Below are positions 26,591 to 49,892 of a stretch of DNA of 64,000 nucleotides, piece after piece. The first letter of the stretch is position 1, and the number at the start of each line of letters is the position of its first letter. The notes beneath the pieces are model-generated. The model made no database searches. It was not told the DNA's origin and saw only the letters and a program-made list of their open reading frames with translations. The DNA comes from Bacteroidota bacterium (lineage in GTDB: Bacteria > Bacteroidota > Ignavibacteria > Palsa-1295), in assembly GCA_018266755.1 (NCBI GenBank), contig JAFDZW010000001.1:521635-585634 (forward strand), in the 5' to 3' direction. Made by a program: the position numbers and the translations under genes.

Positions 26591-26702
26591 GTCATTCTGA
26601 GCGAAGCGAAGAATCCCTTTCGGTGAGACACGACCGTTCGGGCAGTTCCGAAGGGATTCTTCGCTTCTGCTCCTGTGGTCGCAGAAGAATGCTCAGAATG
26701 AC
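26591..26702. repeat. Palindromic repeat family A, copy 6 with insertion
   Basis: GTCATTCTGAGCGAAGCG on the left. The right arm is split by a 25-30-base insertion with its own small hairpin (TTCTGC-TCCTGTGGTC-GCAGAA) before GCTCAGAATGAC. The centre (GGTGAGACACGACC) differs from the other copies. It lies between the possible promoter at 26566 and the leader peptide at 26751. Confidence 0.8.
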
Positions 26703-30286: not shown

Positions 30287-33200
30287 ATGAAACGATCACT
30301 CTACGTACTACTTGCTATTCTATTGCCCGTTGTAAGTATTGCTCAACGCGGTATCCGCAACGACGGTCGTGAATTTTATCTTGGGTTGCTGACTCCGGGA
30401 AATGTGACGCAAGTACCGAACGGGGCGAACCAGTTCAATGCGTTCGCCGAGGTCTATGCCGTGAGCGGCGCGACGGTGCGATTCTCTTATTTCGATGAAC
30501 TGGGAAATGAAGAGATCCTGAAAGTGGTGAAGGTCGCTGCCCGCCAGAGCACTCAGGTGCAGCTTGATGTGCGCAAAATGCGCATGCGCGATACCGGCGA
30601 AGTGCCCGAATACAAAGCCTGCCATGTGGTTTCTGACGCTCCGATCTCACTGCAATTTTTGAGCGCCGGTCCGTCCGACGACGGCTCGTATCTCGCGCTG
30701 CCGATGCAATGCCTCGGCAAGAAGTATGTGGTCATGTCCTATCATGACAATGTCGGCGGCTTGGGCAGCTTGCTCAAACACCCCGACGATCCGGGAGCGA
30801 ACACCGCGGGATATTTCCTGATCATCGCTACCGAAGATGGCACTTCGGTGCAATACGCACCCAACGTTACGACGGCAGCAGGAAAAGTCGGCGCCCATGG
30901 CTATCAGGCAGACGGCTCCGTTCGAGTGTATGGGACGGTGCTCAATCGCGGCGATTGTTATCTCGTCAAGTCGCCGGCATCGAGCGAGACCGACGACATC
31001 TCGGGCTCGCTCGTCGAGACAAGCCGTCCGGTCGTTGTGCTTGCCGGTCACGAGAATGCCTACACCGATGGCAGCGATGTCGGGACGGCATCGGTCGAGC
31101 AGCGTGACTTCATGATCGAGCAGATGATTCCGTCCGACTGTTTCGACACGATGGGATATATCACGATCCCGCTGATCGATTCGCCGCCTCCGACCTCCGG
31201 CGGTACGGGCGATGAATTCCACATTTTTGTTGCCAACGACAAGACTGCTGTGGCGACCATCAATAATGCATACGATATTAACGGCGCCTACTTCGCGAGT
31301 ACCGTCCAAGGGATTCTCGGCATCTCGACACCGGCCGTGATCCATGCGAAAAACGGCGTGCCGTTCGGGGCAATGATGTACGATCAGCGTATGCAAACAA
31401 CGACCCCGAACGCAGCAAACCCGGCACCGTCGATGACTTCGATCGTCGCAGAATCGGGATGGAAGTCGGAGTATGCGCTTGCATTTCCGAAGGATACGAA
31501 TTCGACTGCCTACCAGCAATACTATTTGAATATCATCTGCTCGTCGTCCGATTGGAACCGGCAGTTGATCCAAAATATCTACAATGGCAAACCGTCGCAA
31601 CCGGTCCAGAGCTCCGGTCTGCTTGTCAAGAAGACATGGGTCGTCCCCGGTGGCGAAGGATTGATGGGAGCGCAAATCTCGGTGCCCGTGAGTTCGAACT
31701 GTTACGTGTACAGCGTACCGTTCGGAGCCGATACCGTTCGCCCGAAGTTCATGGCCTACGTGACAGGGATGCGCAACACCTTCGGTACATACTCCGAGTT
31801 CTCGAACCCTGCGGGCATGGCATGCAACCGTATCGGCGCGCCGGACCCCGAACTCGCTCTGTCTGTCAAGCAGAACTGTGCAAACTGGAATATCTGCGCC
31901 GAAGTGAAGGGCGATTCGGCAAGCGCTGTTCGTTATGTCGAACTGCTGAACTACACCAATAATACGTTCTATCCCACGGCTCGGGTCGCGAAGAATATCG
32001 TGCTCGATCCGTCGCTCGATACGCTCGGCAAAGGCGATATCATTCGTTCGGATAATGCGAAGAAATTGTGCTTCGACGTCTTCACGCCGAACCCGGCGGA
32101 TTCGTCGTATGGGACCATTGCAGTCTACGACAATTCGGGCTACGTGCAAACGGTAACACTGAACTCGAAGCCGATCATCAATGCCGCGATTGCACCCGGT
32201 ATGACTCGAATCGCGTCCGATACATTCGCATTCCCGGTGTTTGCGGCAGACAGTGAAGGCTGCGGTTATATCGATATTTCGGCATTGTCGAAGAACGAAG
32301 CGATCCCGTTCGGTATCGATAGTATCTATGTCAAAGGCGATGCGGCGAGCATGCGCATCAATCCGCCGATGACGAACTTCCCGATCACCGTGCAAGCAGG
32401 CCAGTCGCTGCGCGTACCGATCTGCTTCCGGCCGGACGATACGAGCAACTACTCCGCGCAGATCGTCTTTGCAAAAGAGTGCGGCGGAACATTCCGCTTC
32501 GTGGTGCAAGGGAAGGGCGCAACTGGCTTGATCCAAGCGACCGACCTTGCGATCGGTGCGACGGATTCCAACGATGTTAACTGCGGGAAAGTCACGATCA
32601 GTAACACCGGGACGCGTCCGTACACGCTCACCGGTGCGGTCGTCAGCGATCCGATGTTCACCGTCGACCCTGCATTCCTTGCGACGCTCCCGAAAACGTT
32701 CGCACCCGGAGATCGTGTCGATGTACAAGTCTGCTTCAAGCCGACCGATCGCGAATTTCATACTGCAACGATCACGTGGCAGACGAACCTTTCGCCGAAT
32801 GCACGCCTGGCTGCGGAGACCAAAAACATCTCGTTCCTCAGCGGTCAAGGGTACGATCCGAGCGTTTTGTGGTCACCGCGTTCCGTTGTTCTGCTCGGCG
32901 ATACGAGCAAGCCCACCTTGCAACCGAAGATTCGTGTCTACCTGACGAATCGAGGCGCTCTCAAGCGTATACAAGTTCATAGCATTACCCTCACCGGGGA
33001 GAATGCATCGGAATTTCAGATCACGGATAACGAATATGGGCTCAGCCCGCTTTCGAACTTCTACATCAACGTGAAGGATAGTATGTGGGTCGAGGTACAG
33101 TTCACACCGAATCTGACGAAACCATATCCTGCGAAGTGGGCCGATCGCTCGGTATTCCTATCCGCATTATACGATATCGAGAATTCGGGCGTGAAGAACA

Positions 33201-33505: not shown

Positions 33506-33517
33506 CGACTTATTGCT

Positions 33518-33553
33518 CTGCGGCCCAAGGTCCAGATGGACCTTGGGCCGCAG
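33518..33553 (+). terminator. Strong hairpin after paralogue 2
   Basis: A 16-bp perfect stem (33518-33533 with 33538-33553, core GCGGCCCAAGGTCC) has a 4-base AGAT loop, 12 bases after the stop. No T run follows, so it may be a processing or stability element rather than a full terminator. Confidence 0.7.
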
Positions 33554-33611
33554 TGTGTTCAACGTGTGTCGTATGATTTTTCGGTCCGATTCCCTCGTAA
33601 CTTGACGGGGG

Positions 33612-33642
33612 GCTGAGCGTTCTCCTTCTGAGAACGCTCAGC
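33612..33642 (+). promoter_or_regulatory. Hairpin directly before the start codon at 33648
   Basis: A 13-bp perfect stem GCTGAGCGTTCTC / GAGAACGCTCAGC (33612-33624, 33630-33642) with a 5-base loop ends five bases before the ATG. If transcribed it would hide the ribosome entry region. It could instead be a terminator of upstream transcripts if the real start is 33693. Confidence 0.5.
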
Positions 33643-33647
33643 TATCT

Positions 33648-36566
33648 ATGAAGCACAGTTCCTCTATATCCTATTCGATTATACGTCGGTTGATGCCCTC
33701 TGTGCGAGTATGGTTGTTGCTCGGATGTTCGTTGCTGGGCCTGCCCGTGGTACAAGCACAAGGTGTTTCGAATGAGGGGAGGGATTTTTATCTCGGGTTA
33801 CTTAGTCCTTCATTTAATAAACAATCGGTCAACTACTTCGGTAAAAACTTGCAAGGGTTATATAAGGCGTATGCTGTTGTATCCACTTATTCCGACAATC
33901 AGATCACTCTGAACTACTTCGACGATAATGGCTACGAGGTGAATTTTTCAAGCTATTCAGTCGCAGGCGGACATAGTATCCGTATCCCGCTCGACATAGA
34001 GCGTATGCAGATGGCAGAACCTGGGGAGGTAGCGGAAATGAAAGCGTGCCACATTCGCGCTGTAAAGCCTGTGACCGTCCAGTTCTATTCGGCAGGTTCG
34101 AATTCCGGAGAGAGTTATCTCGCATTGCCGACCGCTACGTTAGGTAAGGTATACGTGGTTCAGAGCTACTTCGACAACGAGGGTGGCATCGGTGGTGTAC
34201 TGAGCAATGAAAACGCCTCGGGCTGCTTCATGGTAATCGCAACATTCGATGCCACGACGGTTACGATTATTCCGAGCTCGACCACGATAAAGAAACATCA
34301 AGGGGTCAACTGTGGAGCAGGAAATACTGGCATCGAGGAGCCGTTCACCGTCCGGTTGAACCACGGTCAGGCGTATCTGGTGAAGGGGAAGGCCGATGGG
34401 TCGGGATGCGACATGTCGAATTCGCAGGTTATTGCAGATAAACCAGTCGTAGTAATTGCCGGTCATGAGAATGCGTTCACAATCGGAAGTGACCCGGCAC
34501 TCGTCGGGTCGTCAGGACTTGAAGCTCGTAACTACATGGTTGAGCAGATGCTGCCTGTGAATATTTGGGATACGATGGGATACGTGTCCATCCCGTTCCT
34601 AGATTCACCGGGCGCGTCAGCAGGGAAGGGAGACGAGTTCGCATTTTACTCCGGCGTCATTCCCAGTTTAAATTTGCCGGGCCCGTCGGGCACGAAGATC
34701 AATGTTACGCCAAGCCATTATCTCGATGACGTAGCGCCGTATGCTGTGCCACCACCGGACATCATCGGTGATACCATGCCGATTGAAGCGCACGCAACGA
34801 ATGGTGTGAAGATGGCGATGGTGCAATACGATCAACGAATGCAAGGCAGCGCACCGCCATTCCCGGCGCCAACACAGATGACGATCGTCCCGATGTCACG
34901 CTGGAAGCGAACCTACATCCTCAACGTCCCAAACGATTCCGTCGATCAGGGACACTCGCACTTTATCAATGTAATCTGCAACACATCGGATTATACATCA
35001 GGATACATCACGGTCTCGAAAGATGGTGCGCCGGCCGTAGCACTCAATGCATTTGGCACTGTGCGAGCGACGTGGCCGAAGATACCGAACTTCGATTCGC
35101 TCTCAGGATACTCGATCGCTGTAGATCCCGGCACGCTTCTCATCCGAGGTGCCACAGCATCGCCATACATGGTCTATAACTATGGCGACCCGACATACGA
35201 CTTCGACAGCATGTCATTCAAGATCAAGCCGGCCGTTTTCGCAACGACCTATTCGAATCCTGCTGGATTCATGCTTGCCGGGAATGGACAGTCGATCGGC
35301 AGTAGCGTCGACACACTTTGTGCGAAGTGGCATCTGTGCGCACAGATTCCAACCGGAGAAAAGCGGGCAATTCAGAGTTTCCAAATCGTCGATGATGCGA
35401 AAGGAGATTTCCTTCCTCAACCCGGCCGGTCGTTCAACGTGCGGCTATATTCGTTGATTTTTCCAGATCAGATTGGGGAGATTGCGTTCGGTGCACGCAA
35501 TCGCTCCGAGTGTGCCGATATAGTGGTGGAGAACCCATTCGACACAGCCGAGGCGACGGTTCAGGTCAATGACGATCAAGGCAATACGGAGATTGTGCAT
35601 CTTCATTGGTCGCCCATGCCGGTCATGGTTTCGACAATCCCTCGGACGGTTCTTCAACATGATACGGTGCGATTCCCTGTCGTCTCTCTTCACGGAGATA
35701 CTTGTGTAACGATTAATTACTCGGTACATGACGCCGACACATCGGTGCGCATCGAGGCATTATCTCTTACGCATGGCGACGCTGGTTTTCGAATTGCTTC
35801 CACCACGCCCGCACTTCCGGTCTCACTCTCGAATGGTGATTCGTTGGCTGTGACCGTGTGTTACTCGTCGGTCGATACAGTACATCGCGCAGATTCGCTC
35901 GTTGTTAGATTGTCATGCGCAAACCAATATATAGGGGTTTTCGCGCGCGGTGGAGTTGGGCGTTTCTCGGCAGGAGATCTGAGCATCGACAGTGTGCCGC
36001 TTTCGGCGATCGGTTGCGGCGAAGTCGAATTACGTAATCTTGGAGATTTCCCTATAAGCATCACTGATACAAGCATTGTCGGTGACGGAGCGATCACCTG
36101 GGATCCTGCGAACACCGTCCGTCTTCCGTTTACGATTCCACCTGGTGGCAGCGTTCCAGTCCGGTTTTGCTTCCATCCGGTCGTTGCCAAGAGCGATACT
36201 GTTATCGTGTACTGGACCGTTGCCGATGCAGATGGAGTAAGGTATGCGATCAAGTCCACTTCTTCGTTGCGTGGTTCAACACTTAATCCGGCATTGGTCT
36301 CATCTCAAGGTGAGTCCTTGCACCGGATGTATGCAACACAAACGAACGGTCTGTTAAGGGTGAAGATGACAGAAGATGTCGGTGCGGTGTCGTCAGCAAT
36401 GCTCTACGATGTCCTCGGACGCTGTGTCGGTGTATGGGCTCGCGATGAAATCAGTATCGCAGGCAACGAGCTACGGGTGCATTTGCCGCCGCTTGCGGCT
36501 GGCTCGTATATCCTCCGAGTGGATGCAGGTAACAATCCAGCTACATTGACGATCATCATCTTCTAA
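33648..36566 (+). CDS. IgGFc-binding-like T9SS surface protein (paralogue 3)
   Basis: 972 residues, the shortest of the set. With the start at 33648 the signal peptide has a long n-region; the in-frame ATG at 33693 (MPSVRVWLLLGCSLLGLPVV) gives a standard one. The N-domain carries NEGRDFYLGLLSPSFNKQ, FDDNGYEVNFSS, NSGESYLALP (Asn in place of the first Cys), HENAFTIGSDPA and RNYMVEQMLPVNIWDTMGY. CAKWHLC lies near 556. One or two Cys-containing beta domains follow (TCVTINYSVHDADTS, VTVCYSS, FCFHPVV), then a sorting tail (AMLYDVLGRCVGVW, LAAGSYILRV). Codon choice is less GC-biased than in paralogues 1 and 6, which hints at a different age or origin. Its stop is six bases before the next start. 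Confidence 0.8.
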   Translation: MKHSSSISYSIIRRLMPSVRVWLLLGCSLLGLPVVQAQGVSNEGRDFYLGLLSPSFNKQSVNYFGKNLQGLYKAYAVVSTYSDNQITLNYFDDNGYEVNFSSYSVAGGHSIRIPLDIERMQMAEPGEVAEMKACHIRAVKPVTVQFYSAGSNSGESYLALPTATLGKVYVVQSYFDNEGGIGGVLSNENASGCFMVIATFDATTVTIIPSSTTIKKHQGVNCGAGNTGIEEPFTVRLNHGQAYLVKGKADGSGCDMSNSQVIADKPVVVIAGHENAFTIGSDPALVGSSGLEARNYMVEQMLPVNIWDTMGYVSIPFLDSPGASAGKGDEFAFYSGVIPSLNLPGPSGTKINVTPSHYLDDVAPYAVPPPDIIGDTMPIEAHATNGVKMAMVQYDQRMQGSAPPFPAPTQMTIVPMSRWKRTYILNVPNDSVDQGHSHFINVICNTSDYTSGYITVSKDGAPAVALNAFGTVRATWPKIPNFDSLSGYSIAVDPGTLLIRGATASPYMVYNYGDPTYDFDSMSFKIKPAVFATTYSNPAGFMLAGNGQSIGSSVDTLCAKWHLCAQIPTGEKRAIQSFQIVDDAKGDFLPQPGRSFNVRLYSLIFPDQIGEIAFGARNRSECADIVVENPFDTAEATVQVNDDQGNTEIVHLHWSPMPVMVSTIPRTVLQHDTVRFPVVSLHGDTCVTINYSVHDADTSVRIEALSLTHGDAGFRIASTTPALPVSLSNGDSLAVTVCYSSVDTVHRADSLVVRLSCANQYIGVFARGGVGRFSAGDLSIDSVPLSAIGCGEVELRNLGDFPISITDTSIVGDGAITWDPANTVRLPFTIPPGGSVPVRFCFHPVVAKSDTVIVYWTVADADGVRYAIKSTSSLRGSTLNPALVSSQGESLHRMYATQTNGLLRVKMTEDVGAVSSAMLYDVLGRCVGVWARDEISIAGNELRVHLPPLAAGSYILRVDAGNNPATLTIIIF

Positions 36567-36572
36567 CACATC

Positions 36573-39500
36573 ATGAAGATTCGAAATATCTGTGCTGCAG
36601 CGCTTGCGCTTGTCGCCGCCCGGATCGGTACAGTCGACGCCCAGGGCCTCAACTCCGACGGTCGTGATTTCTATGTGGGATTTCTTTCTCCGTCGGTGTT
36701 GAACCAGCATATCGACACGAACTTTACGCGCTACTTCGGTGCGTACGCTCTCGTGTCGAGCTATGCCGACAACGAGGTGTCGGTTTCGTATTTCGATAAC
36801 AGCGGCAACGAGACTGCGGCGAAGACCTATACAGTAGGTAAGTTGCGGGCCGTTCAGATCCCGCTCGATACCAGGCAGATGCGCATGAGCGACCCCGGAG
36901 AAATACCGGAGTACCGTGCTTGCCATATCAGCGCGCGAGGGCCGGTGAACGTTACGTATTTCAGTGTCGGGCCGTGTTCCGGCGGGAGTTATCTCGCAAG
37001 TTCGACGGCTGCACTCGGCACGAAGTACGTCGTACAGAGCTACCACGATAATATCGGCGGGGTCGGAGGGCTTGTATCTCGTGAAAACTCCGCGGGCTAC
37101 TTCATGGTCATTGGTGCATTTGACGGGACGACGGTCACCATCACGCCGAGCGCAACGACAGCCGGTGGACATACGGGCGTGAACTGTGGTGCCGGTGCGA
37201 CGGGAGTGCCAGTGCCGTTCACGATCGGCCTCAACCGCGGACAGTGTTACATGGTCAAAAGTGCCGCAAGTGGTACGGGATGCAATATCTCGGGCTCGAC
37301 CGTCGTATCCGACAAGCCGGTTGCCGTTCTCGCCGGACATGAGAATGCACTGACCGATGGGAGCGATCCGCAACTGGGTGGCGGACGTGCACTCGAAGCC
37401 CGAGACTATATGGTCGAACAGATGTTGCCGGTTGAATTCTGGGATACGTCGGGATATTTTTCCGTGCCATTCATCGATTCGCAGGAGCCAGCCAACGCAG
37501 GGCAAGGGGATGAGTACGAACCCTTCACCGGAATAATCCCTGGGCTTGGCGGCCCTGGTCCGAGTGCCTCGAATATATCTATGAATACGGGTACCAAGAC
37601 GTACACAAACGTAGCCCCCTACAAGACGCCGCCGCAGTTGTTGAACTGGGCATCGCCGGTCGACTTCACCTCGACGAACGGCACGAAGATCGCGGTTGTG
37701 CAATACGACCAGCGAATGCAAGGCGCGGGTGCCCCGTATCCTGCACCAAGCCAGCTAACGGTCATCCCTCGATCTACGTGGAGATCAAGCTACGCATTCT
37801 TCATCCCGAATAATCAGTTCGAGATCCTGCAGGGGTATTATTTAAACCTTATCTGTTCTCGCTCAAGCTATGACAATCGGAAGATACTCGTGAGTGTGAA
37901 CGGCGCGAAGCCCGCACCGCTTCCCAATGGGCTGGCGACAAAAAAGAAGTATGCTGTTATCCCTGACACACCGGAGCTTGTTGGGTATTCTCTTTCGCTC
38001 GGACCCGGGAGTTATTATCTGACCGATACATCGGGACAGCCGTTTCAACTGGTCAACTACGGCTTCCGAGCATTCGACCCCGACCGTGATCTTGGCGACT
38101 TCGACGGTGACGATTTCTTCTTCTCGTACGCATCTCCGGCCGGCTTCGTCGCGAAGGGTGACTCTGCGTCGGCAGGGAAGCTTGTGGTCACGGTCGATAC
38201 ACTCTGTGATCATTGGCATATCTGTGCAATAGACCGCAGAATCTACATGCCCGGTATCAAAGCATTTCAATTGGCCGACGATCCGAACGGCTACCTGACT
38301 CAGATGCCGATCGCGCGGCACAATCTTCGCTTCGATCCGACGGATGCCGGGGTGATCGCTCACTACCCGTACGAGCTGATTCGTAGTGGTTTCGATACGC
38401 AACTCTGCGCGGACATGTATCCGGAGTTTCCGGGCGATACGGCTTACGGTTCGGTGTTCATCGTCGATAACGCCGGACATTCATACCGTGTCGATTTGCG
38501 CAGTATGCCGAAGCACCTAACAATCACTGCGTCGCCGAATTATCTTAGTGGCCGCGATACGCTCTTCTTCCCGAGCACGCTTGCTGGTGGCGATACGTGT
38601 GCAACATTGTTCGTGATCAATAACGGGAACAAAGACGATTCGTCGATTATAGTAACAGCGGCCACACTCGACAATACGTCTCGGTTCGCTGTCGCAGGTC
38701 TTGCACCGACGCTGCCCATAATGCTTGCGCCTGGCGATTCGCTCAGGATTACAATCTGCTATACACCATCGGCTACCGACACTGCCAATGGGATGCTACA
38801 CATTCAGACCCTGTGCGGCGAGACCGACGTGACGCTTCGCGGTACATCCGGCTATCCGGTGATTACCGCAACCGATCTGAACTTCGGAACGCTCGGTATC
38901 GGGAAGACGTCGTGCAAGCCGCTTACCGTGACGAATATCGGTGCAATACCATTTACACTCGTGAAGGGTATACTCAGCGATACCGTCCATTACTCCATCG
39001 ATCCGCAAAGCCTCAGCCGATTGCCGATGGTACTGACGCCCGGTCGGATCGACACGATTACTGTCTGCTACCGTCCGAACGGTGCATCGGCCGATTCGGC
39101 TCGGATCGATTGGGTCACCGATCAGAAGAATCAGAGTACGTACGGACTGAAAACCTTCTCGATGCTTACTGGCTTCGGACAGAATCAGGATGTTCAATGG
39201 ACGAGCGACTCGCTCACGATCGCTGCCGATACGACGATTAATCCCGTCGAAGGAATTGGGATCGCAACCCTCTGGAATGCACGCTCAACTACGGCGTTCA
39301 TTCGCGATATTCACCTGAGTGGACCGGACGCAGCGGAATTCCAAATTGCGGAAAATCAACGCGGGATCGATCCTCCGCGAAACTTCAACCTGACTTCGGG
39401 CGAGATGATGTGGCAGAAAGTACGGTATTCGCCGGATCTGTCGCGGGCATGGGCAAACGTCGCTCGCCATGCGTTGCTCGTCGTCTCGTTCAACAACGAA

Positions 39501-39839
39501 GCCGGGACTCGGGTCGACTCGGATGTCGTAGCGCTTACCGGGACGTTCAAGGAGCAATCGTCGTCGGTGTCAGTTGGCGACGAACTGCATACGCCGCCCA
39601 CCGTTCGGGTGGTAGGGAAATATCTCGTTGTGAGTATCGCACCCAAGGCGGACGACCCTGCTACATTCGAGCTGTTCGATCTTCTCGGCAGGAAGATCGC
39701 GATGTGGCCGCAGTACTTCCAACCCACAACCGAAGGCAACGTAGTGCTCCCGTTGCCTCAGCTCACGGGAGGGTTATATGCACTACGCATCTCGTGTCGT
39801 GCGGAGCAACATGTGTCCAAGATCATTCTTGCACCATAG
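36573..39839 (+). CDS. IgGFc-binding-like T9SS surface protein (paralogue 4)
   Basis: 1088 residues; signal peptide MKIRNICAAALALVAARIG to VDAQG. N-domain motifs: SDGRDFYVGFLSPSVLNQH, CHISARGPVNVTYFS, CSGGSYLAS, HENALTDGSDPQLGGG, RDYMVEQMLPVEFWDTSGYF. CDHWHIC lies near residue 544. SPD-2-like units follow (TCATLFVINNGNKDDS, ITICYTPSATD, KPLTVTNIGAIPFTLVKG, VCYRPNGASADSARIDW), then a T9SS-like tail (FELFDLLGRKIAMWP, LTGGLYALRI). The intergenic distances (6 bases before, 4 after) make co-translation with its neighbours very likely. Probable secreted adhesin or matrix component. Confidence 0.82.
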   Translation: MKIRNICAAALALVAARIGTVDAQGLNSDGRDFYVGFLSPSVLNQHIDTNFTRYFGAYALVSSYADNEVSVSYFDNSGNETAAKTYTVGKLRAVQIPLDTRQMRMSDPGEIPEYRACHISARGPVNVTYFSVGPCSGGSYLASSTAALGTKYVVQSYHDNIGGVGGLVSRENSAGYFMVIGAFDGTTVTITPSATTAGGHTGVNCGAGATGVPVPFTIGLNRGQCYMVKSAASGTGCNISGSTVVSDKPVAVLAGHENALTDGSDPQLGGGRALEARDYMVEQMLPVEFWDTSGYFSVPFIDSQEPANAGQGDEYEPFTGIIPGLGGPGPSASNISMNTGTKTYTNVAPYKTPPQLLNWASPVDFTSTNGTKIAVVQYDQRMQGAGAPYPAPSQLTVIPRSTWRSSYAFFIPNNQFEILQGYYLNLICSRSSYDNRKILVSVNGAKPAPLPNGLATKKKYAVIPDTPELVGYSLSLGPGSYYLTDTSGQPFQLVNYGFRAFDPDRDLGDFDGDDFFFSYASPAGFVAKGDSASAGKLVVTVDTLCDHWHICAIDRRIYMPGIKAFQLADDPNGYLTQMPIARHNLRFDPTDAGVIAHYPYELIRSGFDTQLCADMYPEFPGDTAYGSVFIVDNAGHSYRVDLRSMPKHLTITASPNYLSGRDTLFFPSTLAGGDTCATLFVINNGNKDDSSIIVTAATLDNTSRFAVAGLAPTLPIMLAPGDSLRITICYTPSATDTANGMLHIQTLCGETDVTLRGTSGYPVITATDLNFGTLGIGKTSCKPLTVTNIGAIPFTLVKGILSDTVHYSIDPQSLSRLPMVLTPGRIDTITVCYRPNGASADSARIDWVTDQKNQSTYGLKTFSMLTGFGQNQDVQWTSDSLTIAADTTINPVEGIGIATLWNARSTTAFIRDIHLSGPDAAEFQIAENQRGIDPPRNFNLTSGEMMWQKVRYSPDLSRAWANVARHALLVVSFNNEAGTRVDSDVVALTGTFKEQSSSVSVGDELHTPPTVRVVGKYLVVSIAPKADDPATFELFDLLGRKIAMWPQYFQPTTEGNVVLPLPQLTGGLYALRISCRAEQHVSKIILAP

Positions 39840-39843
39840 AACA

Positions 39844-42800
39844 ATGAAGTGTATACTGTGCGCGCTAATCGTCTGTGTCGTGTCGGTTTCGATCGGCCAC
39901 ACTCAGGGGCTCACGTCTGAAGGGAGAGACTTCTATCTGGGGTATGTCGAGCCGTCGTTCGTTCGACAGACGTTCGCGAATACTACGAATGCCTACTACG
40001 GCGTGTACGCGCTCGTGAGTAGCTACGATGATGCCCAAGTCACGGTTTCGTATTTCGATCAGAACGGAAGCGAGCATGTGAGCGGGACGTATCAGATCGC
40101 AAAACGACGCTCGGTGCAGATCCCGCTTGATCTGAGCAAGATGCGCATGAGCCTGCCGGGTGAGGTGGCGGAGTATAAAGCGTGCCATCTTTCGGCGAAC
40201 CGACCGATAGCCGTGACGTATTTCAGCACCGGCGCGTGTGCCGGAGGCAGTTACCTGGCGGCAACGACTGCCGCGTTGGGGAAAACGTATGTCATACAAA
40301 GCTATCGTGACAACTCAGACGGGATCGGTGGCGTCATGACCCACGAACCGTCAGCCGGATACTTTATGGTCGTCGGCGCATTCGATGGGACTCATGTGCA
40401 GATCATTCCAAGCAGCACAACCGCCGGCGGCCATGCAGGTGTAAACTGTGGCAACGGAGCCAGCGGTACGCCGCGACCGTTCACGGTATCACTTTCGCGC
40501 TGTCAATGCTACCTTGTCCGAGGTGCTCTCGATGGGTCGGATTGCGATCTGTCGAACTCGGTTGTCATCGCGGATAAGCCGGTCGCCGTGCTTGCCGGGC
40601 ACGAAAATGTATTCACCGATGGCTCCGACCCGAATCCGGGCGGAAAGCACCTGCTCGACGCTCGCGATTTTATGATCGAGGAGATGCTGCCGGTCGAGTA
40701 CTGGGATACGATGGGCTATATCTCGATTCCCTTCATCGATTCACAAGCTCCGTTCAATGCCGGTGAAGGTGACGAGTATCGGTTCTTTACGGGTGTAATA
40801 AAAGAGTTGGGTAGTGGCGGACCTGGTGGTTCGAATGTCACCATAAACAATCATATCCGCGACTACAATGGTATAGGTGAATACCAGATCCCTCCGCCGC
40901 AGGTGATCAACTGGATGTCGCCAATCGATTGCTATTCGACAAACGGTACAAAGATAGGCGTGGCGATGTACGATCAGCGGATGCATGGTGGAGGCGCACC
41001 GTATCCGGCACCGAGCCAGTTGACGATCATTCCGAAATCGCGGTGGAAATCGTCGTACTTGTTCTATGTGCCGAACAACCCGTTCGAGGTGTTGCAAGGA
41101 TATTATGTGAACCTGATCTGCAACAGGTCGGACTTTAGCAATCGAAAGCTGTTGTTGAGCATTAACGGGGGCAAACTTACGCCCTTGCCGGCTGGGTTAG
41201 CCACAAAGAAGATATATTCGGTGATACCTGAATTCCCGGAGTTAGTCGGTTATACGTTCGCTATCGGACCAGGATCGTACTACATTACTGCCGATACCGG
41301 AGCTGTCCAACCCTTTATGGCCTATGCCTACGGTAACCGGGCAGTGGATAGCGATAACAACCTCGGGGATATGGACAGCGACGATTTCTTTTTTAGTTAT
41401 GCCAGTCCGTCCGGTTTCTCAATGCACGGCGATTCGAACGAACGGCTGAGTGTCACGGTCGATTCGCTCTGTGCGAGATGGCATCTCTGTATTCATGACA
41501 GTCGCAGCAAGAATCCGGGCATCAAGGCGATCGAGATCGTGGATGATATCAACGGGAATCGGATCAAGCCCGGCTATCAATATCACAATGTGCGGTTCGA
41601 CGCATCGGTTGATCCGAACGGCACCCGCGAGATCGCACTGACGGGCAACGATTCCGTGTACTGCCTCGATGTATGGATATCGAACCCTTTCGATTCGGCG
41701 TACGCACCAATCTACATCGTCGATAACGAGGGCAACGGGCGGCTGATCGAATTACATTACAAGAAGCCGAACATCACTATTGGGGTTGTACCGAATTATC
41801 CGAATCAGCGCGACAGTATCGTCTTCCCACCGACTCGCTCCGGGGAGAGTTCGTGCGCAACAATGTCGTATGTCAACTCAGGGAAGCCGGGCGAACCCAA
41901 CATCGAAGTGGATAATGTAACCCTGTTACATAGTGACGGTAATTATTCGATCACGAGTATAAAACCTGCACTCCCTGTCATGCTCGCGCCGGGAGATACA
42001 CTTGCAGTTACCGTGTGCTACCATCCACAGAATATTTCAACTCGCACCGATTCATTTCCTTTATATGTTGACTCGTTGGTGGTATCCACACCGTGTCTGC
42101 GTGCCCCTATTACGTTGGTAGGTCCGCTGGCTCTGCCGCTGATCCATGCGACAGACAAAGATTTCGGGAGGGTGGTGATCGGCAGCTCCAAGTGTGATTC
42201 TGTGACAGTGCGTAATATCGGGAATGTTCCGTTCACACTTACCGATACGGTGATACTACAGAGCGTCTTCCACAATAACAACGACTTCACGTGGGACGCA
42301 TCGTCGAGATTAAACAAAAACCGGTTGCCGGTCGTCCTGCAGCCTGGACAGTTCGTACGCGTCAGCTTCTGCTTCACTCCGAGCGTGAAAGGATACGACT
42401 CCACCGCAGTTGATTGGAAAACCGATGTGCAAGGTGGACTGAAGGATTCAGTAAAGGCGTGGAGTGGCCTCAGAGGCACGGGGATCGCACCCGGATTACT
42501 TTGGGATCCTGACAGCAGCATCCGAATGGAAGACTCTTCGATAACACCCATCAGCGACCGAGTTAGAGTTCTATTGATACAGACAGGGACTTCGAAAGTA
42601 CACTTGCGGCAAACACTGCTTGAGGGGCAGGATGCTGCGGAATTCCAACTTGGCGCAAACAAGCTGAACTACTATCCTCTGGCGGATCTGGATATTCAGG
42701 TTGGAGATACCATTTGGGTCGACGTTGATTGGCAAGCTGATCTGACGATTCCGTATCCGAACAAATTTCGAGACCGAATAGCGTTGCTGGTGGCGACGTT

Positions 42801-43155
42801 CGACCAGTCCGGTGGAGGGGTAGACAGCACGGTGATAGTGCTTGTCCGGAAATTCGTAAGTACAGGTCAAGGGGTTCCGACCCATGTTGCTGAACAATCT
42901 GCGGCGCAGGTGCAGGCATTTGTCGTAGATGGGAGGCTCGTAGTTCGCATCCCCACAGATTTCCATGACGCCCGGCTCGAACTGTTCGATCTGCTCGGCA
43001 GAAGGATCTGGCGTGCCGAAGCCGAAGATTTGCCGGTGTCTGCCAGCGGCTACTCCGTCTGTTCGGTACCAACGCTGCCATCGGGGATGTATTCGCTTCG
43101 CGCAGTTGGTATTGACGGGAAAACGGCTGTTGGAAAAATTCTCATAGAAAAATGA
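39844..43155 (+). CDS. IgGFc-binding-like T9SS surface protein (paralogue 5)
   Basis: The start at 39844 (MKCILCALIVCVVSVSIGHT, a signal peptide) lies four bases after the previous stop; the frame stays open upstream inside the preceding gene but without a signal peptide. 1103 residues. Motifs: SEGRDFYLGYVEPSFV, CAGGSYLA, HENVFTDGSDPNPGG, RDFMIEEMLPVEYWDTMGY, CARWHLC near 542, then SPD-2-like units (SCATMSYVNSGKPGEPN, VTVCYHPQN, NIGNVPFTLTDT, FCFTPSVKGYDST). The tail is LELFDLLGRRIWRAE and LPSGMYSLRAVG. The half after the Cys motif closely resembles paralogues 1 and 7. Function as for the others, unproven. Confidence 0.82.
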   Translation: MKCILCALIVCVVSVSIGHTQGLTSEGRDFYLGYVEPSFVRQTFANTTNAYYGVYALVSSYDDAQVTVSYFDQNGSEHVSGTYQIAKRRSVQIPLDLSKMRMSLPGEVAEYKACHLSANRPIAVTYFSTGACAGGSYLAATTAALGKTYVIQSYRDNSDGIGGVMTHEPSAGYFMVVGAFDGTHVQIIPSSTTAGGHAGVNCGNGASGTPRPFTVSLSRCQCYLVRGALDGSDCDLSNSVVIADKPVAVLAGHENVFTDGSDPNPGGKHLLDARDFMIEEMLPVEYWDTMGYISIPFIDSQAPFNAGEGDEYRFFTGVIKELGSGGPGGSNVTINNHIRDYNGIGEYQIPPPQVINWMSPIDCYSTNGTKIGVAMYDQRMHGGGAPYPAPSQLTIIPKSRWKSSYLFYVPNNPFEVLQGYYVNLICNRSDFSNRKLLLSINGGKLTPLPAGLATKKIYSVIPEFPELVGYTFAIGPGSYYITADTGAVQPFMAYAYGNRAVDSDNNLGDMDSDDFFFSYASPSGFSMHGDSNERLSVTVDSLCARWHLCIHDSRSKNPGIKAIEIVDDINGNRIKPGYQYHNVRFDASVDPNGTREIALTGNDSVYCLDVWISNPFDSAYAPIYIVDNEGNGRLIELHYKKPNITIGVVPNYPNQRDSIVFPPTRSGESSCATMSYVNSGKPGEPNIEVDNVTLLHSDGNYSITSIKPALPVMLAPGDTLAVTVCYHPQNISTRTDSFPLYVDSLVVSTPCLRAPITLVGPLALPLIHATDKDFGRVVIGSSKCDSVTVRNIGNVPFTLTDTVILQSVFHNNNDFTWDASSRLNKNRLPVVLQPGQFVRVSFCFTPSVKGYDSTAVDWKTDVQGGLKDSVKAWSGLRGTGIAPGLLWDPDSSIRMEDSSITPISDRVRVLLIQTGTSKVHLRQTLLEGQDAAEFQLGANKLNYYPLADLDIQVGDTIWVDVDWQADLTIPYPNKFRDRIALLVATFDQSGGGVDSTVIVLVRKFVSTGQGVPTHVAEQSAAQVQAFVVDGRLVVRIPTDFHDARLELFDLLGRRIWRAEAEDLPVSASGYSVCSVPTLPSGMYSLRAVGIDGKTAVGKILIEK

Positions 43156-43206
43156 GAAATACTGTGTCACGTGTCGGATATTCAGGTGTCCTTTAGGGGA
43201 CAATAA

Positions 43207-43231
43207 CAAGCCGGCGGCACGCTGCCGACTT
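43207..43231 (+). terminator. Weak imperfect hairpin between paralogues 5 and 6
   Basis: CAAGCCGGC... and ...GCCGACTTG can pair over about eight bases with one mismatch. The 162-base gap also holds a small TGTCC/GGACA hairpin. No convincing promoter is seen. Confidence 0.3.
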
Positions 43232-43317
43232 GCATTTAAGTAATGTCAGTGTAACAAACGGGGTAGTAGACGGTTGTTCCTCCAGGAGTAGCTTCTACTA
43301 TCCCCCTCGGTTCGACT

Positions 43318-46300
43318 ATGAAACGCATACTCATTCTTGTTCTTGCGATCGTACTTGGTTCTTCGGTGAGATCGTGGTCTCAGGGTCTCAATGCAGACGG
43401 CAAAGATTTCTATCTCGGCTTGCTCTATCCCTCGTTCAATGCACAGTCGATAAACTTCTTCGGACGAAACGTCCAGGGATTCTTCGGCGTGTACGCACTG
43501 ATCTCGAGCTATGAGGACAACGTCATCACCCTCGGCTATTTCGACGACAACGGTAACGAGATCAACCAGCAGACCTACAATGTGGCGAAACACCGCTCAG
43601 TGCAGGTCCCGCTCGACATTGCGCACATGCGCATGACCGAGCCGGGCGAGATCGCCGAATACAAGTCCTGCCACATCATGGCGAAGAAGCCGGTCAACGT
43701 ACAGTTTTTCAGCACTGGCTCGTGCTCCGGCGGAAGTTATCTTGCGCTATCGACAGGGATGCTCGGGAAAACGTACGTCGTCGAGAGCTATCATGATAAC
43801 GAAGGCGGTGTCGGCGGTGCTCTCTCGAACGAAGATGCCTCCGGCTACTTCATGGTCATCGCAGCGTTTGATAGTACCACTGTTGTAATCACCCCGAGTT
43901 CGACCACGAAAAAGAAGCATGCCGGTGTGAACTGCGGAAGCGGTGCGACGGGTGTTCCTCAGCCGTTCACAATAAATCTCCATCGTGGGCAGTGTTACAT
44001 GGTCAAGGGCGCAGCCGACGGTTCGGGATGCGACATCTCGAACTCGACCGTTATTGCCGATAAGCCGGTAGCAGTCATCGCCGGGCATGAGAATGCATTT
44101 ACCGACGGTTCCGACCCGCAACCGGGCGGTGCGCGCACGCTCGAAGCGCGTGACTATATGGTCGAGCAGATGATCCCGGTTGAATACTGGGATTCGGTGG
44201 GCTACGTATCGATTCCTTTTGTCGATTCACAGGCTCCGTTCAATGCCGGTGAAGGTGACGAGTATCAGGTTTTTACCGGTGTAATCAAAGAGTTGGGTGG
44301 TAGCGGGCCTGCAGGTTCAGATATTAAGATGAATGATGGAGGCCGTTTCTACAAAGGCATCGCGGAATATCAGGTGCCCCCACCGCAGTTGCTCAACTGG
44401 ACGTCGCCGGTCGATTTTAGTTCGACCAACGGTACGAAGATAGGCGTAGCAATGTACGATCAACGTATGCAAGGCGGCGGTGCGCCGTATCCGGCTCCGA
44501 GCCAGACGACGATCATTCCGAAATCGAGATGGAAGAAGTCGTTTTTATGGAACGTCCCGAACAACACGTTCGAAATTATGCAAGGCTACTATATCAATCT
44601 GATTTGTAATCGTAGCGATTACGATAACAATAAGATACTTATCGGGGTCAACGGGGGCAAGCTGGCGCCACTTCCGAATGGATTGGCTGTCAAAAGGAAA
44701 TATGCCACTATCCCGGATTATCCAGATCTTGTCGGCTATAGTATTGCGCTCAGTCCGGGCGCATATTATGCTACTGCCGATACGGGTAACACACACCCGT
44801 TCATGATCTATAACTATGGCTTCCGCGCGATCGACCCCGACCGCGACCTCGGTGACTTCTGCGGTGACGACCATTTCTTCGCGTACTCGTTGCCCGTAGG
44901 CTTCGATCTGCCGGGCAAACAGATTCCGATGGGCGCGACGGTCGACACCGGTTGTGCTACTTGGCACGTATGCGTCCATACGTCGCACGGCATTCGGCAG
45001 GTGTCGTTGCTGCGTGACACAATCGGTACGTTCACTACGAGCGGTGGGATATCGTATAATACGGAGTTTGATCCGACAATCGACGTGAACGGGACAGGCG
45101 AACTGAACCTCAGCGGCAACGATACGACGTACTGCTTCGATGTTCAGGCAATCCAACCGCTCGATAGCGCGAGGGCGGTCGTCTACGTACTTAACTCAGA
45201 GGGCAACTGGTACTCGCTCGACCTTCGATCCACGGGGACACGCTTGACGCTCGACATCCCACAAAGCTGGCAGGGGCCGACCGGCGGAATCGTGTTCCCG
45301 CAGGTGCTTGTCCCACACGACACATGCGTGACTGTTCGTCTGTATAATAATGCATCCAAAGGCTCGGCGGGCGAGACGGTCAGTGATGTTCGATTGGCGA
45401 CGACCTCATCCGCTATCAGACTGACGAACGTCAGTCCCGCACCTCCGCTCGTACTGAGTCCCGGCGATTCACTCACTGCGACGATCTGCTTCACGGCGCT
45501 CGATACGATGCCGGCGTACAACGAACTCCGCATCACCACATCGTGCCCGCTCTCGAAGATCCCGATCACTGCGCAGGGGAGTATGCCTCGGATCGCTGCG
45601 ACCGATCTCCGAAATCTTGTCAGCAAGATCGGAGACCGTAAATGCACGACGGTCGTGGTTCGAAACGTCGGTAATGTTGCGATCACACTTCGCTCCGCCG
45701 TCTCGACGCAGGGAAGCCGCTTCCATTTGGATACTGCCGGACTCCCGCGCCTGCCGTACTATCTGCGTCCGCACGACAGTGTAGCGTTCGGTGTCTGCTT
45801 CCGTCCCGATAGCATCGGCACATTCAACGACACAATCGAGTGGCTTACTGACGTCGCACCGCCGCTGACCGATTCCATCAAACGTTTCTCCTACTTGCAA
45901 GGCAAAGGCGTGCGGCCGGTGCTCACATGGTCGGGGGATGAGATTTTCATTTTTGCCGATTCGCTCACGAATTCACCTGTTGGCATCCGTCGTGCGATAT
46001 TGTCGAACCAATCGACCACCGCCGCGGTCGTGACGAGAGTCGGGTTCATCGGCGGCGACCAGAGCGAGTTTGCGATCGTCGGCAATCAGCTTGGCTATTC
46101 GCCGCTCTGGAATTTCGGCATGGGGCCGAACTCCAGCATTTGGGTCGATCTTGGTTGGAGTCCTGACGTGACTAAGCCGTACCCCGATCGGTACGCTCAA
46201 CGCCTGACCCGAGCATACGCATCGTATTGGCTCAACGACACCGAGACTATCGCCGATACTGCGTTCATGAAGGTCTTCGGGACGTTCGACGTACGTTATG

Positions 46301-46578
46301 CCGATGTCATTCCCACGCCTCCGGCGAAACCCGGGCGGCTGTCGGTACAGGCTTCTGCCGGTTCGCTCTTTGTCCGCGTACCGCAGGAGCTTGCAGGTTC
46401 GAACGATATCGAGCTGTGCGATCTGCTCGGTCACGTTGTCGCACGCTGGCCTGGGGTGATGTTGGCGCAGGACGAAATGGCAAAATTTGTGTTACCCAAC
46501 CTTGCGACAGGTGTGTATATTGTCCGCAGTACACACAACGATCTGATCAGGAGCGAAAAGCTTCTGATCAGTCGATAG
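43318..46578 (+). CDS. IgGFc-binding-like T9SS surface protein (paralogue 6)
   Basis: 1086 residues; signal peptide MKRILILVLAIVLGSSVRSW. Residues about 24-535 are nearly identical to paralogue 1 (ADGKDFYLGLLYPSFNAQSI, IAHMRMTEPGEIAEYK, KKKHAGVNCGSGATGVP, DYMVEQMIPVEYWDSVGY, RDLGDFCGDDHFFAYSLPVG). The similarity stops abruptly after the LPVGF motif. From there the protein is its own type: CATWHVC near 545, HGIRQVSLLRD, TCVTVRLYNNASKGSAG, KCTTVVVRNVGNVAITLRS and VCFRPDSIGTFNDTIEW. The tail is IELCDLLGHVVARWP and LATGVYIVRS. The sharp boundary suggests domain swapping or gene conversion with the gene at 8258. It is 47 bases upstream of paralogue 7. Confidence 0.83.
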   Translation: MKRILILVLAIVLGSSVRSWSQGLNADGKDFYLGLLYPSFNAQSINFFGRNVQGFFGVYALISSYEDNVITLGYFDDNGNEINQQTYNVAKHRSVQVPLDIAHMRMTEPGEIAEYKSCHIMAKKPVNVQFFSTGSCSGGSYLALSTGMLGKTYVVESYHDNEGGVGGALSNEDASGYFMVIAAFDSTTVVITPSSTTKKKHAGVNCGSGATGVPQPFTINLHRGQCYMVKGAADGSGCDISNSTVIADKPVAVIAGHENAFTDGSDPQPGGARTLEARDYMVEQMIPVEYWDSVGYVSIPFVDSQAPFNAGEGDEYQVFTGVIKELGGSGPAGSDIKMNDGGRFYKGIAEYQVPPPQLLNWTSPVDFSSTNGTKIGVAMYDQRMQGGGAPYPAPSQTTIIPKSRWKKSFLWNVPNNTFEIMQGYYINLICNRSDYDNNKILIGVNGGKLAPLPNGLAVKRKYATIPDYPDLVGYSIALSPGAYYATADTGNTHPFMIYNYGFRAIDPDRDLGDFCGDDHFFAYSLPVGFDLPGKQIPMGATVDTGCATWHVCVHTSHGIRQVSLLRDTIGTFTTSGGISYNTEFDPTIDVNGTGELNLSGNDTTYCFDVQAIQPLDSARAVVYVLNSEGNWYSLDLRSTGTRLTLDIPQSWQGPTGGIVFPQVLVPHDTCVTVRLYNNASKGSAGETVSDVRLATTSSAIRLTNVSPAPPLVLSPGDSLTATICFTALDTMPAYNELRITTSCPLSKIPITAQGSMPRIAATDLRNLVSKIGDRKCTTVVVRNVGNVAITLRSAVSTQGSRFHLDTAGLPRLPYYLRPHDSVAFGVCFRPDSIGTFNDTIEWLTDVAPPLTDSIKRFSYLQGKGVRPVLTWSGDEIFIFADSLTNSPVGIRRAILSNQSTTAAVVTRVGFIGGDQSEFAIVGNQLGYSPLWNFGMGPNSSIWVDLGWSPDVTKPYPDRYAQRLTRAYASYWLNDTETIADTAFMKVFGTFDVRYADVIPTPPAKPGRLSVQASAGSLFVRVPQELAGSNDIELCDLLGHVVARWPGVMLAQDEMAKFVLPNLATGVYIVRSTHNDLIRSEKLLISR

Positions 46579-46625
46579 ACGAGACAACCGAACTCTCGAA
46601 TAACATCATCTCAAGCCTGACATCG

Positions 46626-49600
46626 ATGAAGAAATATGTGATCAGTCTGTTGCTGCTGCTTACAGCAGCGATGCCGTCGTACTCGCAATCGAGCGACGGA
46701 CGGGATTTTTATCTCGGTTTACTCACGCCGTCGATCAATCGACAGACCATCAACTTCTTGGGGCGCAATATCACTGGGTTCTATGGCGTCTATGCGTTGA
46801 TCACGTCCTACGATGCAAGCGTTGTAACCGTGGGCTATTTTGATGATAACGGAAACGAGATCAACAAACAGACATATAATGTGCTCGCTCGGCGTAGTGT
46901 GCAGGTGCCGCTCGATGTTGCTCATATGAGACCGGACTCGACGACTGGTGGGATCGCATATACGACCTGTCATATTACTTCAAATAGGAATATTTCCGTT
47001 ACCTTCTTCAGTACGGGTGCGTGTTCCGGTGGGTCGTATCTCGCGCTGCCGACGCCCGTGCTTGGCACCCGATATACGGTGCTTACGTACCACGACAATC
47101 CAAATGGCTACGCGAACGGCACGCTCAGCAACGAAAATGGTCGGAGCGTTGCACAGGTGATCGCGGCGTATGATAATACGACGGTAACCATTACACCGTC
47201 GACAACGACGGCTGACGGGCACATCGGATTTCTCACCGGCGCACAAAGCAACCGGCTCGATCCGCATCCGTATAAGATTACACTCAACCGAGGACAAGCA
47301 TACACGTTCTATTCAACGGGAACGGATGCGTCGTTCGACCTCAGCGGTACATCCATCGTTGCGAACAAATCAATCGCAGTGATCGCTGGTAACGAGAATG
47401 GTTTTGTCGATGGCGGCAATCCGGACCCAGGGCAGGGCAAAGCCCTCGACGGACGCGACTTTATGATTGAGCAGATGCTCCCAAGCAGCGCGCTCGACAC
47501 TGCCGGATATTATTCGATACCATTCTATCGGCCCGTGACTCAGACGACACAGTTCGCAGGCGACTCGTATGTCGTCACTGCGGCGACCGACACGCTCGGC
47601 GCAGTCGTCGTTGGTACGGGCGGTTCGGTTGCCGCGATGGGCGCCGGGCCATACAGCGTGCATCAGGATTCGAACGTGACCGGACCCGTCGAATACCATT
47701 CGACCAACGGACAGAAGTTCGGGGTCATTGCTGCGGAGCATCGGTATCAGGGATCGACATCGCCATTCTCGTCTCCATCGATCATGACACTGGTGCCGCG
47801 CTCCAGATGGAAGTCGTCCTATCTTTGGTACGTCCCGAACAATACGTTCGAGATCATGCAAGGATATTACGTGAATGTGATATGCCGAGCGGTGGACTTC
47901 GACAACGATTCGTTGTTCGTTGCAACAAACGCCGGGAAGTTGGTTTCCGTACGAAGCAGCGGACTTGCAGTGAAATCGCGCTATAACGCTATCCCGAACG
48001 CACCGGATCTCATCGGGCTGACACTCTCCGTCGGCCCCGGTTCATACTATATGACCACGACAGGATCGATGCCGTTCATGGTCTATCAATACGGTTTTCG
48101 TGCTATCGATCCCGATCGCGATCTCGGGGATATGGATGGTGACGATTTCTTCTTCAGCTACGCAGCGCCCGTCGGCTGTGCAATCAGTGATAGCTCGGCG
48201 AACATGAGCGTCACTGTTGACACAAGCTGTGCAACATGGCATGTCTGTGTTCGAGACCATTCCGGCCTTTCTTCGGGAATAAAATCGATACAAATACTTG
48301 ATGACGCTGCCGGAGATTTCGTTCGACCAGGGAGAAAGTACTACAACGTCCAGTTCGATCCTTCGGTCGATCCTTACGTCACGCGCGAGATCGATCTGCC
48401 TGGCACCGACTCGGTCTATTGCTTTGACGTCCTCGTGAGCAATCCGTTGGATTCTGCGTATGGGCCGATCTACATTCTCGACAACAATGGCAACAGCGTT
48501 ATCGTGGACCTGCACTACCGTACGATCAAGATGGCAGTCATGGGGTCGCAAGGGCTAACGTATAGGGCTGACTCGATGGTGTTCCAGCCAACTGCGATCG
48601 GATCTTCGAATTGTGTCACGATTCAGTACGTGAACAACGGAAAACCGGGTGATCCGCCGCTGCAAATAACCGACATCTCTCTTAAACGTAACGACCCGGC
48701 CTACTACATCGACAATACGACGCCGAAGCTCCCGGTGAGTCTGGCAAGTGGCGATACGTTAACGGTTGATCTCTGCTTCCGTCCGCGAGATACGAAGATC
48801 GATGAGTACAATCCCCCTGTCCATCTGGACTCGCTCGTGCTTACCACACCATGCTTTAAGGCACCCATCACGCTCGTCGGGCCCGTGGGCGTGCCGTTGC
48901 TCTACGCGACCGACAAAGACTTCGGTTTGGTTGTGGTCGGTAATTCAAAGTGCGATACCGTAACGGTAAGCAATATAGGTAATATACCAATCACCGTGAC
49001 CGATACGATCATCAACGCGAGCCTGTTCGGCAATAAGGATTTCTCGTGGGACGGCTCGTCGAAGTACAATAAGAACCGCTTACCCGTAATCTTACAGCCC
49101 GGTCAGTACGTGCGGGTATCGTTCTGCTTCACTCCGAGCGTCGTCGGCCACGATTCCGCGTCTGTCATCTGGCAAACGGATGTAACGGGTTCGATGCGCG
49201 ACTCGATCAAACGCTGGAGCGCACTCAAAGGCACCGGCATCATTCCAGGCGTCAAGTGGGACCGCAAGACGCAAGTGGACTATGTTGATACACTCGCAGC
49301 CTCCCCGCAATCCTATCGTCGAGTGAATCTGCTGGGCGGTGCTACTGCACCGACCCATGTCCAGCGGGTGTTCTTTGACGAAGCCGACTCATCTGAATTC
49401 CACATCGTTGCAAATAAATACTACTATCAGCCGCTTGAAGGCTTCGTTATGAATGTTGGCGATACCTTGTGGGTGGACTATATCTGGGCACCGGATCTCA
49501 CAAAAGGTACCTACCCCAGACACGCACAGTTACGCGCAACATTTGACTACCCAGGTGGCCGGCTCGACAGCACGGTCATCGACATCACCGGCTCGTTCGA

Positions 49601-49892
49601 TAGCAAAGACCGCGACGGTGTTGCTATGAGTAGTTCGGCCGACGGCAGGTTCACAGCGTATTTCATTGGTAACGCACTCGTGATACACAGTGGAACAGCC
49701 AGCCCGAGCATCACTCAGATTGTGATCTATGATGTGCTGGGTCGCGAAGTCCAGCACACGGCGGCGGAGGCAATTGCAAAAGGCGATCACGAGATCGTGT
49801 GGCCCCTACCGCAGCTCGCAAGCGGCACGTACTTCGTCAAGCTCGTTGCCGACGGCCGGATGTATTCGTTACCAATAAACAAGCTGCGCTGA
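46626..49892 (+). CDS. IgGFc-binding-like T9SS surface protein (paralogue 7, last of array)
   Basis: The start at 46626 (MKKYVISLLLLLTAAMPSYS) gives a clean signal peptide and 1088 residues; a longer frame overlaps paralogue 6 and is rejected. The N-domain is divergent in the middle (TCHITSNRNISVTFFSTGA, YHDNPNGYANGTLSNENG, NENGFVDGGNPDPGQGKALD with Asn replacing the usual His of HEN). CATWHVC lies near 534. The downstream half resembles paralogue 1 (SIQILDDAAGDFVRPGRKYY, SNPLDSAYGPIYILDN, TPCFKAPITLVGPVGVPLL, SKYNKNRLPVILQPGQ, PLEGFVMNVGDTLWVDY). The sorting tail is IVIYDVLGREVQHTA and LASGTYFVKLVADG. It ends the array; a hairpin and a new promoter follow. Confidence 0.82.
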   Translation: MKKYVISLLLLLTAAMPSYSQSSDGRDFYLGLLTPSINRQTINFLGRNITGFYGVYALITSYDASVVTVGYFDDNGNEINKQTYNVLARRSVQVPLDVAHMRPDSTTGGIAYTTCHITSNRNISVTFFSTGACSGGSYLALPTPVLGTRYTVLTYHDNPNGYANGTLSNENGRSVAQVIAAYDNTTVTITPSTTTADGHIGFLTGAQSNRLDPHPYKITLNRGQAYTFYSTGTDASFDLSGTSIVANKSIAVIAGNENGFVDGGNPDPGQGKALDGRDFMIEQMLPSSALDTAGYYSIPFYRPVTQTTQFAGDSYVVTAATDTLGAVVVGTGGSVAAMGAGPYSVHQDSNVTGPVEYHSTNGQKFGVIAAEHRYQGSTSPFSSPSIMTLVPRSRWKSSYLWYVPNNTFEIMQGYYVNVICRAVDFDNDSLFVATNAGKLVSVRSSGLAVKSRYNAIPNAPDLIGLTLSVGPGSYYMTTTGSMPFMVYQYGFRAIDPDRDLGDMDGDDFFFSYAAPVGCAISDSSANMSVTVDTSCATWHVCVRDHSGLSSGIKSIQILDDAAGDFVRPGRKYYNVQFDPSVDPYVTREIDLPGTDSVYCFDVLVSNPLDSAYGPIYILDNNGNSVIVDLHYRTIKMAVMGSQGLTYRADSMVFQPTAIGSSNCVTIQYVNNGKPGDPPLQITDISLKRNDPAYYIDNTTPKLPVSLASGDTLTVDLCFRPRDTKIDEYNPPVHLDSLVLTTPCFKAPITLVGPVGVPLLYATDKDFGLVVVGNSKCDTVTVSNIGNIPITVTDTIINASLFGNKDFSWDGSSKYNKNRLPVILQPGQYVRVSFCFTPSVVGHDSASVIWQTDVTGSMRDSIKRWSALKGTGIIPGVKWDRKTQVDYVDTLAASPQSYRRVNLLGGATAPTHVQRVFFDEADSSEFHIVANKYYYQPLEGFVMNVGDTLWVDYIWAPDLTKGTYPRHAQLRATFDYPGGRLDSTVIDITGSFDSKDRDGVAMSSSADGRFTAYFIGNALVIHSGTASPSITQIVIYDVLGREVQHTAAEAIAKGDHEIVWPLPQLASGTYFVKLVADGRMYSLPINKLR

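Follow-up and report, generated by a model that had tools for sequence, protein, structure and literature searches.

Why would a bacterium carry six large, similar genes for putative surface proteins in a single tandem array, and how did the copies come to differ? This question is raised by a 64,000-nucleotide stretch of DNA from a Bacteroidota bacterium (the entire stretch is hereafter called the window). The original prediction was an array of six genes sharing one layout (signal peptide, large N-domain, Cys-Trp motif, SPD-2-like beta domains, and short sorting tail), with a further paralogue elsewhere in the same 64 kb. All six open reading frames, between positions 30287 and 49892, were confirmed as intact, free of internal stops, and encoded on the same (+) strand, with stop-to-start spacings of 142, 6, 4, 162, and 47 bases, exactly as predicted. 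The count of seven paralogues, six in the array (g1 to g6) and one outside it (g0, starting at 8258), is also correct. The lengths, originally given as about 970 to 1100 codons, are 972 to 1103 for the array copies. The genes, and the head of g5, are the following:

8258–12787, + strand: g0, 1509 aa, out-of-array paralogue; PF17517 E-value 3.4e-26; syntenic orthologues L063 and L067
30287–33505, + strand: g1, 1072 aa, the most divergent copy of the array; PF17517 E-value 1.3e-26; TIGR04183 26.1 bits (above cut-off)
33648–36566, + strand: g2, 972 aa, one C-half segment missing in the alignment; PF17517 E-value 3.7e-25; TIGR04183 21.1 bits (below the cut-off of 23)
36573–39839, + strand: g3, 1088 aa; PF17517 E-value 1.9e-29; choice_anch_D 47.5 bits (above cut-off)
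39844–43155, + strand: g4, 1103 aa; PF17517 E-value 2.9e-23; head patch at about residues 240–400 in common with g0 and g5; no TIGR04183 match
43318–46578, + strand: g5, 1086 aa; PF17517 E-value 2e-24; head in common with g0, C-half unrelated in appearance; break at codon 529
46626–49892, + strand: g6, 1088 aa; PF17517 E-value 3.9e-29; TIGR04183 28.2 bits; C-half nearest to that of g0
43381–44904, + strand: head (N-domain) of g5 up to the recombination break at codon 529; AlphaFold2 model and breakpoint

The IgGFc_binding profile (PF17517) matches all seven predicted proteins with E-values of 1e-23 to 1e-29 and scores of 83 to 103 bits, well over the gathering score of 25.6, which bears out the proposed assignment of the N-domain; all 29 aligned heads are matched as well. 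Seven long paralogous open reading frames with such scores are not a product of chance. "IgGFc-binding" is a family name only: nothing points to binding of IgG, which is not expected in the source organism. A G[RK][DE]FY opening and a CxxWxxC motif (C546, W549, and C552 in g5) are likewise present in all seven copies. To this extent, the layout is indeed common to the set; the Pfam ASH profile, however, finds no match in g2, the copy that lacks one segment. PF22544 (ASH) scores over the cut-off in g0, g1, g3, g4, and g6, and below it or not at all in g2 and g5; NF012200 (choice-of-anchor D) exceeds its cut-off in g3 only. The C-halves of most copies carry Ig domains of the ASH/Cep192/HYDIN type, with ASH/Ig-like or choice-of-anchor D domains in g0, g1, and g3 to g6. 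In addition, g0 is extended at its C-terminus by about 450 aa (codons about 1050–1509); this segment is present in its orthologues, absent from the array copies, and 27–54% identical between species in most blocks. Among the array copies, the heads are mutually 35–64% identical and the C-halves 25–46%, the heads being better conserved than the C-halves in most pairs of copies.

PF17517 is common to bacteria and to animal mucus and glue proteins. The array copies share a profile match and a beta-rich extracellular domain with human FCGBP, the namesake of the family, with metazoan IgGFcBD proteins, such as PRIT of frog glue, and with the bacterial members. Related PF17517 proteins are contained in frog glue, and vertebrate genes of the PF17517 type also form clustered gene families (PMC11237159). 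Unlike the metazoan proteins, the array copies display a bacterial type IX secretion system (T9SS) architecture, with ASH domains replacing VWD domains or disordered repeats, and their head comprises about 510 residues, compared to 297 positions in the PF17517 profile.

The original description of the products as T9SS surface proteins is backed by the secretion machinery and by the tails, with the reservation that four of the tails are below the cut-off or unrecognized. The genome encodes SprA (SprA_N, 173.9 bits) and PorU (686.6 bits) and contains 150 matches to Por_Secre_tail; the GldM model found no match in the genome and was equally silent on its own controls. The N-termini, inspected by eye, look like signal peptides, with a basic n-region, a hydrophobic stretch, and an AQ-type end. 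All seven copies end in what appears to be a type-A tail: TIGR04183, the model for this tail, scores over its curated cut-off in g1, g6, and g0, just below it in g2, g3, and g5, and is silent on g4, where the motif is visible by eye. These proteins thus resemble T9SS type-A cargo (TIGR04183/PF18962 tail) in the signal-peptide-like N-terminus, the type-A-like tail, and the presence of SprA and PorU, and differ from it in that the tails match weakly or, in g4, escape the model. Under the mechanism we propose, the proteins would be exported by the T9SS, and PorU would cleave off the tail and, in the process, fix the protein to the cell surface. Each protein would comprise an all-beta N-terminal head of the PF17517 type, about 510 residues long, followed by an ASH/Ig-like stalk holding the head outward; we infer surface display of the g0 to g6 proteins and this orientation from the domain families. 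A literature search for IgGFc-binding combined with type IX secretion returned no paper.

The source genome (3.55 Mb, 11 contigs) contains 23 PF17517 matches, 13 of which belong to the subfamily with the GRDFY opening, seven in the window and six elsewhere. The six score at least 380 bits with the head profile, compared to less than 75 bits for the other PF17517 matches. In a survey of 119 genomes of the class (E-value at most 1e-30, no more than 12 candidates per genome scored), the GRDFY subfamily was detected in 11 of the 13 genomes of the Kapabacteria-related family that includes the source of the window, and in none of the 106 others. Thirteen genomes have between 9 and 26 PF17517 matches apiece. 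GRDFY copies stand three or four in a row in G002, G005, and G006, which belong to two further genera of the family; these tandem runs, together with the existing Pfam entry for the domain, temper the earlier statement that no characterized system is built like this array. Under our scheme, the protein family would have expanded by duplication inside this one bacterial family.

A conserved position of the array was not found among the relatives compared (G001, G002, G003, G005, G008, and G009). In the source genome, the array directly follows rpmI (L35; 29921–30112), which itself follows infC as usual, and rplT is located on another contig (C5:690603). The infC, rpmI, and rplT genes are close together in G003, G005, G008, and G009, and in G002, rpmI is followed on its contig by no array gene. 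As for the sister species, G001, infC is cut short by the end of a contig, and the BNR-purH block is preceded by a different T9SS-tailed protein. An array-type copy of this species, L064 (positions 2–2754 of G001:C263), starts at the contig end and occupies two frames (289 and 646 aa), being either a broken gene or the result of an assembly error.

In sequence terms, the set combines PF17517 with T9SS cargo. What is chiefly new is the mosaic nature of the array copies and g0. Orthologues of g0 were identified, independently of the head sequence, in G001 (same genus) and G006: they have the same extension of about 450 residues as g0 and lie beside the same neighbors (MiaE and/or a sortilin-like gene). 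In the head, g0 is 88.2% identical to g5 of its own genome and only 65.8% identical to the G001 orthologue, whereas in the C-half the values are 31.5% for g5 and 55.2% for the orthologue. Between g0 and g5, there is one sharp switch, at g0 codon 538 and g5 codon 529, the end of the N-domain (chi2 of 415 versus a shuffle maximum of 21, in a test that treats sites as exchangeable). The g0–g6 and g4–g6 pairs are reversed, their C-halves being more alike than their heads, and g4 has an internal head patch in common with g0 and g5. The proportion of synonymous differences is 0.44–0.58 in the shared tracts, compared to about 0.65–0.9 in most other blocks; this drop at silent sites in the same tracts argues for exchange of DNA, not convergence of proteins.

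If the array consisted of old tandem duplicates that never recombined, slowly evolving heads and fast C-halves could mimic mosaics, and the greater conservation of the heads in most pairs, as well as the assumption of exchangeable sites in the shuffle test, leave some room for this explanation. Slower evolution of heads alone is nevertheless insufficient because in g0–g6 and g4–g6 it is the C-half that is similar, not the head, and a rate difference between the halves was rejected as a full explanation of the mosaic pattern. With silent sites tracing the same tracts and the head of g0 resembling a paralogue more than the orthologue, descent without recombination is very improbable.

Phylogenetic analysis of the two halves produced conflicting topologies. 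AU tests reject the orthologue clade with either half (heads, p = 1e-49; C-halves, p = 9e-8). They also reject a g0+g4+g6+g2 grouping for the heads (p = 2.6e-4) and, more weakly, g0+g5 for the C-halves (p = 0.026); the tested groups were picked post hoc, which makes these p-values optimistic, and the argument rests on effect sizes. The sequences from G006, a second genus, point to a parallel mosaic case: the head of its g0 orthologue groups with an array copy of the same genome (100/100), and the C-half is placed outside a group of array copies. Formation of the predicted g0 to g6 proteins as head/stalk mosaics, by recombination between paralogues, is well supported, so that the diversified set foreseen in the original prediction is borne out and extended. 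In the proposed mechanism, domain-scale gene conversion would keep the family mosaic, placing one head on differing C-halves (g0 and g5) and patching some heads (g4) and C-halves (g0 and g6) in part, and heads and stalks would be re-paired by paralogue recombination over evolutionary time.

The exchanges are old, given that dS between the heads of g0 and g5 is 0.66–1.03 and the longest identical word they have in common is 47 bases. Within the g0–g5 head tract and the g0–g4 patch, dN/dS is 0.07–0.16; the heads are under purifying selection, which, strong as it is in the shared tract, is not by itself a pointer to ligand diversification. That a head has been swapped naturally while under purifying selection suggests a portable module, and the swap locates the edge of that module. 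A locus of rapid antigenic or phase variation, with heads switching within a population, would also account for tracts common to the array and the out-of-array g0, and a phase-specific repertoire was among the roles originally suggested. Searches for homopolymer tracts (8 or more), significant tandem repeats, and invertible segments came back empty, and all copies are intact; there are no silent cassettes, each copy having its own start and tail; and the tracts are old. Such switching is extremely improbable. A mobile or phage origin was considered separately and rejected: searches of phages, plasmids, PHROGs, and viral contigs yielded no relatives, and the GC content equals that of the window.

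In its diversification, the set resembles the gingipains and HagA of Porphyromonas gingivalis, whose adhesin domains are rearranged; the published account is of alleles exchanged and domain variants differing among strains of a single species (PMC5266723). These are likewise T9SS surface proteins diversified through domain rearrangement and recombination; in the present case, however, the exchange is old, occurred between paralogues within one genome, and involves unrelated domains. The array extends to an uncultured lineage what is known from P. gingivalis, namely T9SS surface proteins diversified through recombination.

The full-length model of g5 is nearly all beta (pLDDT 79.6, pTM 0.63), and the search of PDB folds with it was dominated by ASH/Ig chains, so the head was modeled separately with AlphaFold2, with a confident result (pLDDT 86.7, pTM 0.89). 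No solved relative of the whole head was found in the PDB by sequence or fold. Part of the head model resembles TM1070 (PDB 1nc7; probability 0.99–1.00, TM to target 0.57–0.62, E-value 0.007–0.03) over about 130 columns only, with no supporting sequence match in Pfam or PDB. TM1070 belongs to the ASRT/ASRAH beta-sandwich superfamily, which has been proposed to bind sugars (PMC2739507). Among viral models, the best fold match to the head model (43381–45003) is FirrV-1-C4, a predicted protein from the brown-alga virus Feldmannia irregularis virus a; it aligns along the g5 head with an E-value of 1.7e-10 and TM of 0.42–0.44. Both fold matches are leads only. The least conserved stretch of the head, residues 322–361 of g5 (mean pairwise identity 0.10–0.16), is a candidate specificity loop. 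The possibility that the head consists of four sequence repeats was not supported by profile-profile comparison.

What, then, might these proteins do? Our preferred reading, which we consider about evenly poised, is that they are T9SS-displayed head-on-stalk proteins whose variety arose through duplication and domain-scale gene conversion, and that they most likely adhere to or cross-link extracellular glycans or biofilm matrix. The head would bind glycans, matrix, or other cells, and differing head/stalk pairs would serve different ligands or surfaces. Alternatively, the proteins could form a structural coat, an outer layer or matrix lattice that assembles itself, in which the copies provide dosage and redundancy and conversion only homogenizes the packing heads. 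The many large copies per genome, the beta-only architecture, and the purifying selection on heads are compatible with such a coat, but the sequence variety of both heads and C-halves is large for a single lattice, and known S-layer families were unmatched in profile searches; we regard this as rather unlikely. Capture of nutrients, with the heads binding polysaccharides for degradation or uptake at the surface and the copies matching different polymers, not serving attachment, is unlikely: a bacterial PF17517 protein is present in a secretome on cellulose (PMC12055684) and the TM1070-like part of the head hints at sugars, but this fold match is partial, and the array neighbors examined include no carbohydrate-active enzyme or transporter. 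It is quite unlikely that the array and g0 constitute a recombination-fed kit, with sugar-binding PF17517 heads passed like cassettes from one T9SS stalk to another at a constant domain boundary; if they do, the products would be a diversified lectin or adhesin coat, and the head, which animal mucus and glue proteins also possess, would be a glycan-binding module.

The two long gaps of the array, g1–g2 and g4–g5, contain very stable hairpins (z-scores of -9.5 and -3.8 versus shuffles):

33518–33553, + strand: 17-bp perfect hairpin just downstream of g1, terminator-like, with no T run
33612–33642, + strand: 13-bp perfect hairpin, ending 5 bases upstream of the g2 start
43260–43305, + strand: long hairpin, ending about 12 bases upstream of the g5 start

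These hairpins may function in termination, attenuation, or translation control. Gap sizes suggest the transcription units g1, g2-g3-g4, and g5-g6. The earlier proposal that at least three genes are co-translated is weakened by starts and stops that do not overlap; a single g2-g3-g4 transcript is likely, given the gaps of 6 and 4 bases. Promoter-like sites in a sigma-70-type scan were no more common than in shuffled sequence.

Elsewhere in the window, the open reading frame at 20660–22528 encodes a 622-aa fusion of a TIR_2 domain, an FlgO-like segment, and TPR repeats. In addition, CGTCATTCTGAGCGAAGCGAAGAATCCCT and its complement form a dispersed intergenic palindromic repeat, with arms of up to 31 nt, of which the window contains at least seven copies:

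432–518, 7860–7912, 15343–15427, 20115–20163, 22559–22641, 26603–26667, 60939–61023: sites of the CGTCATTCTGAGCGAAGCGAAGAATCCCT palindromic repeat
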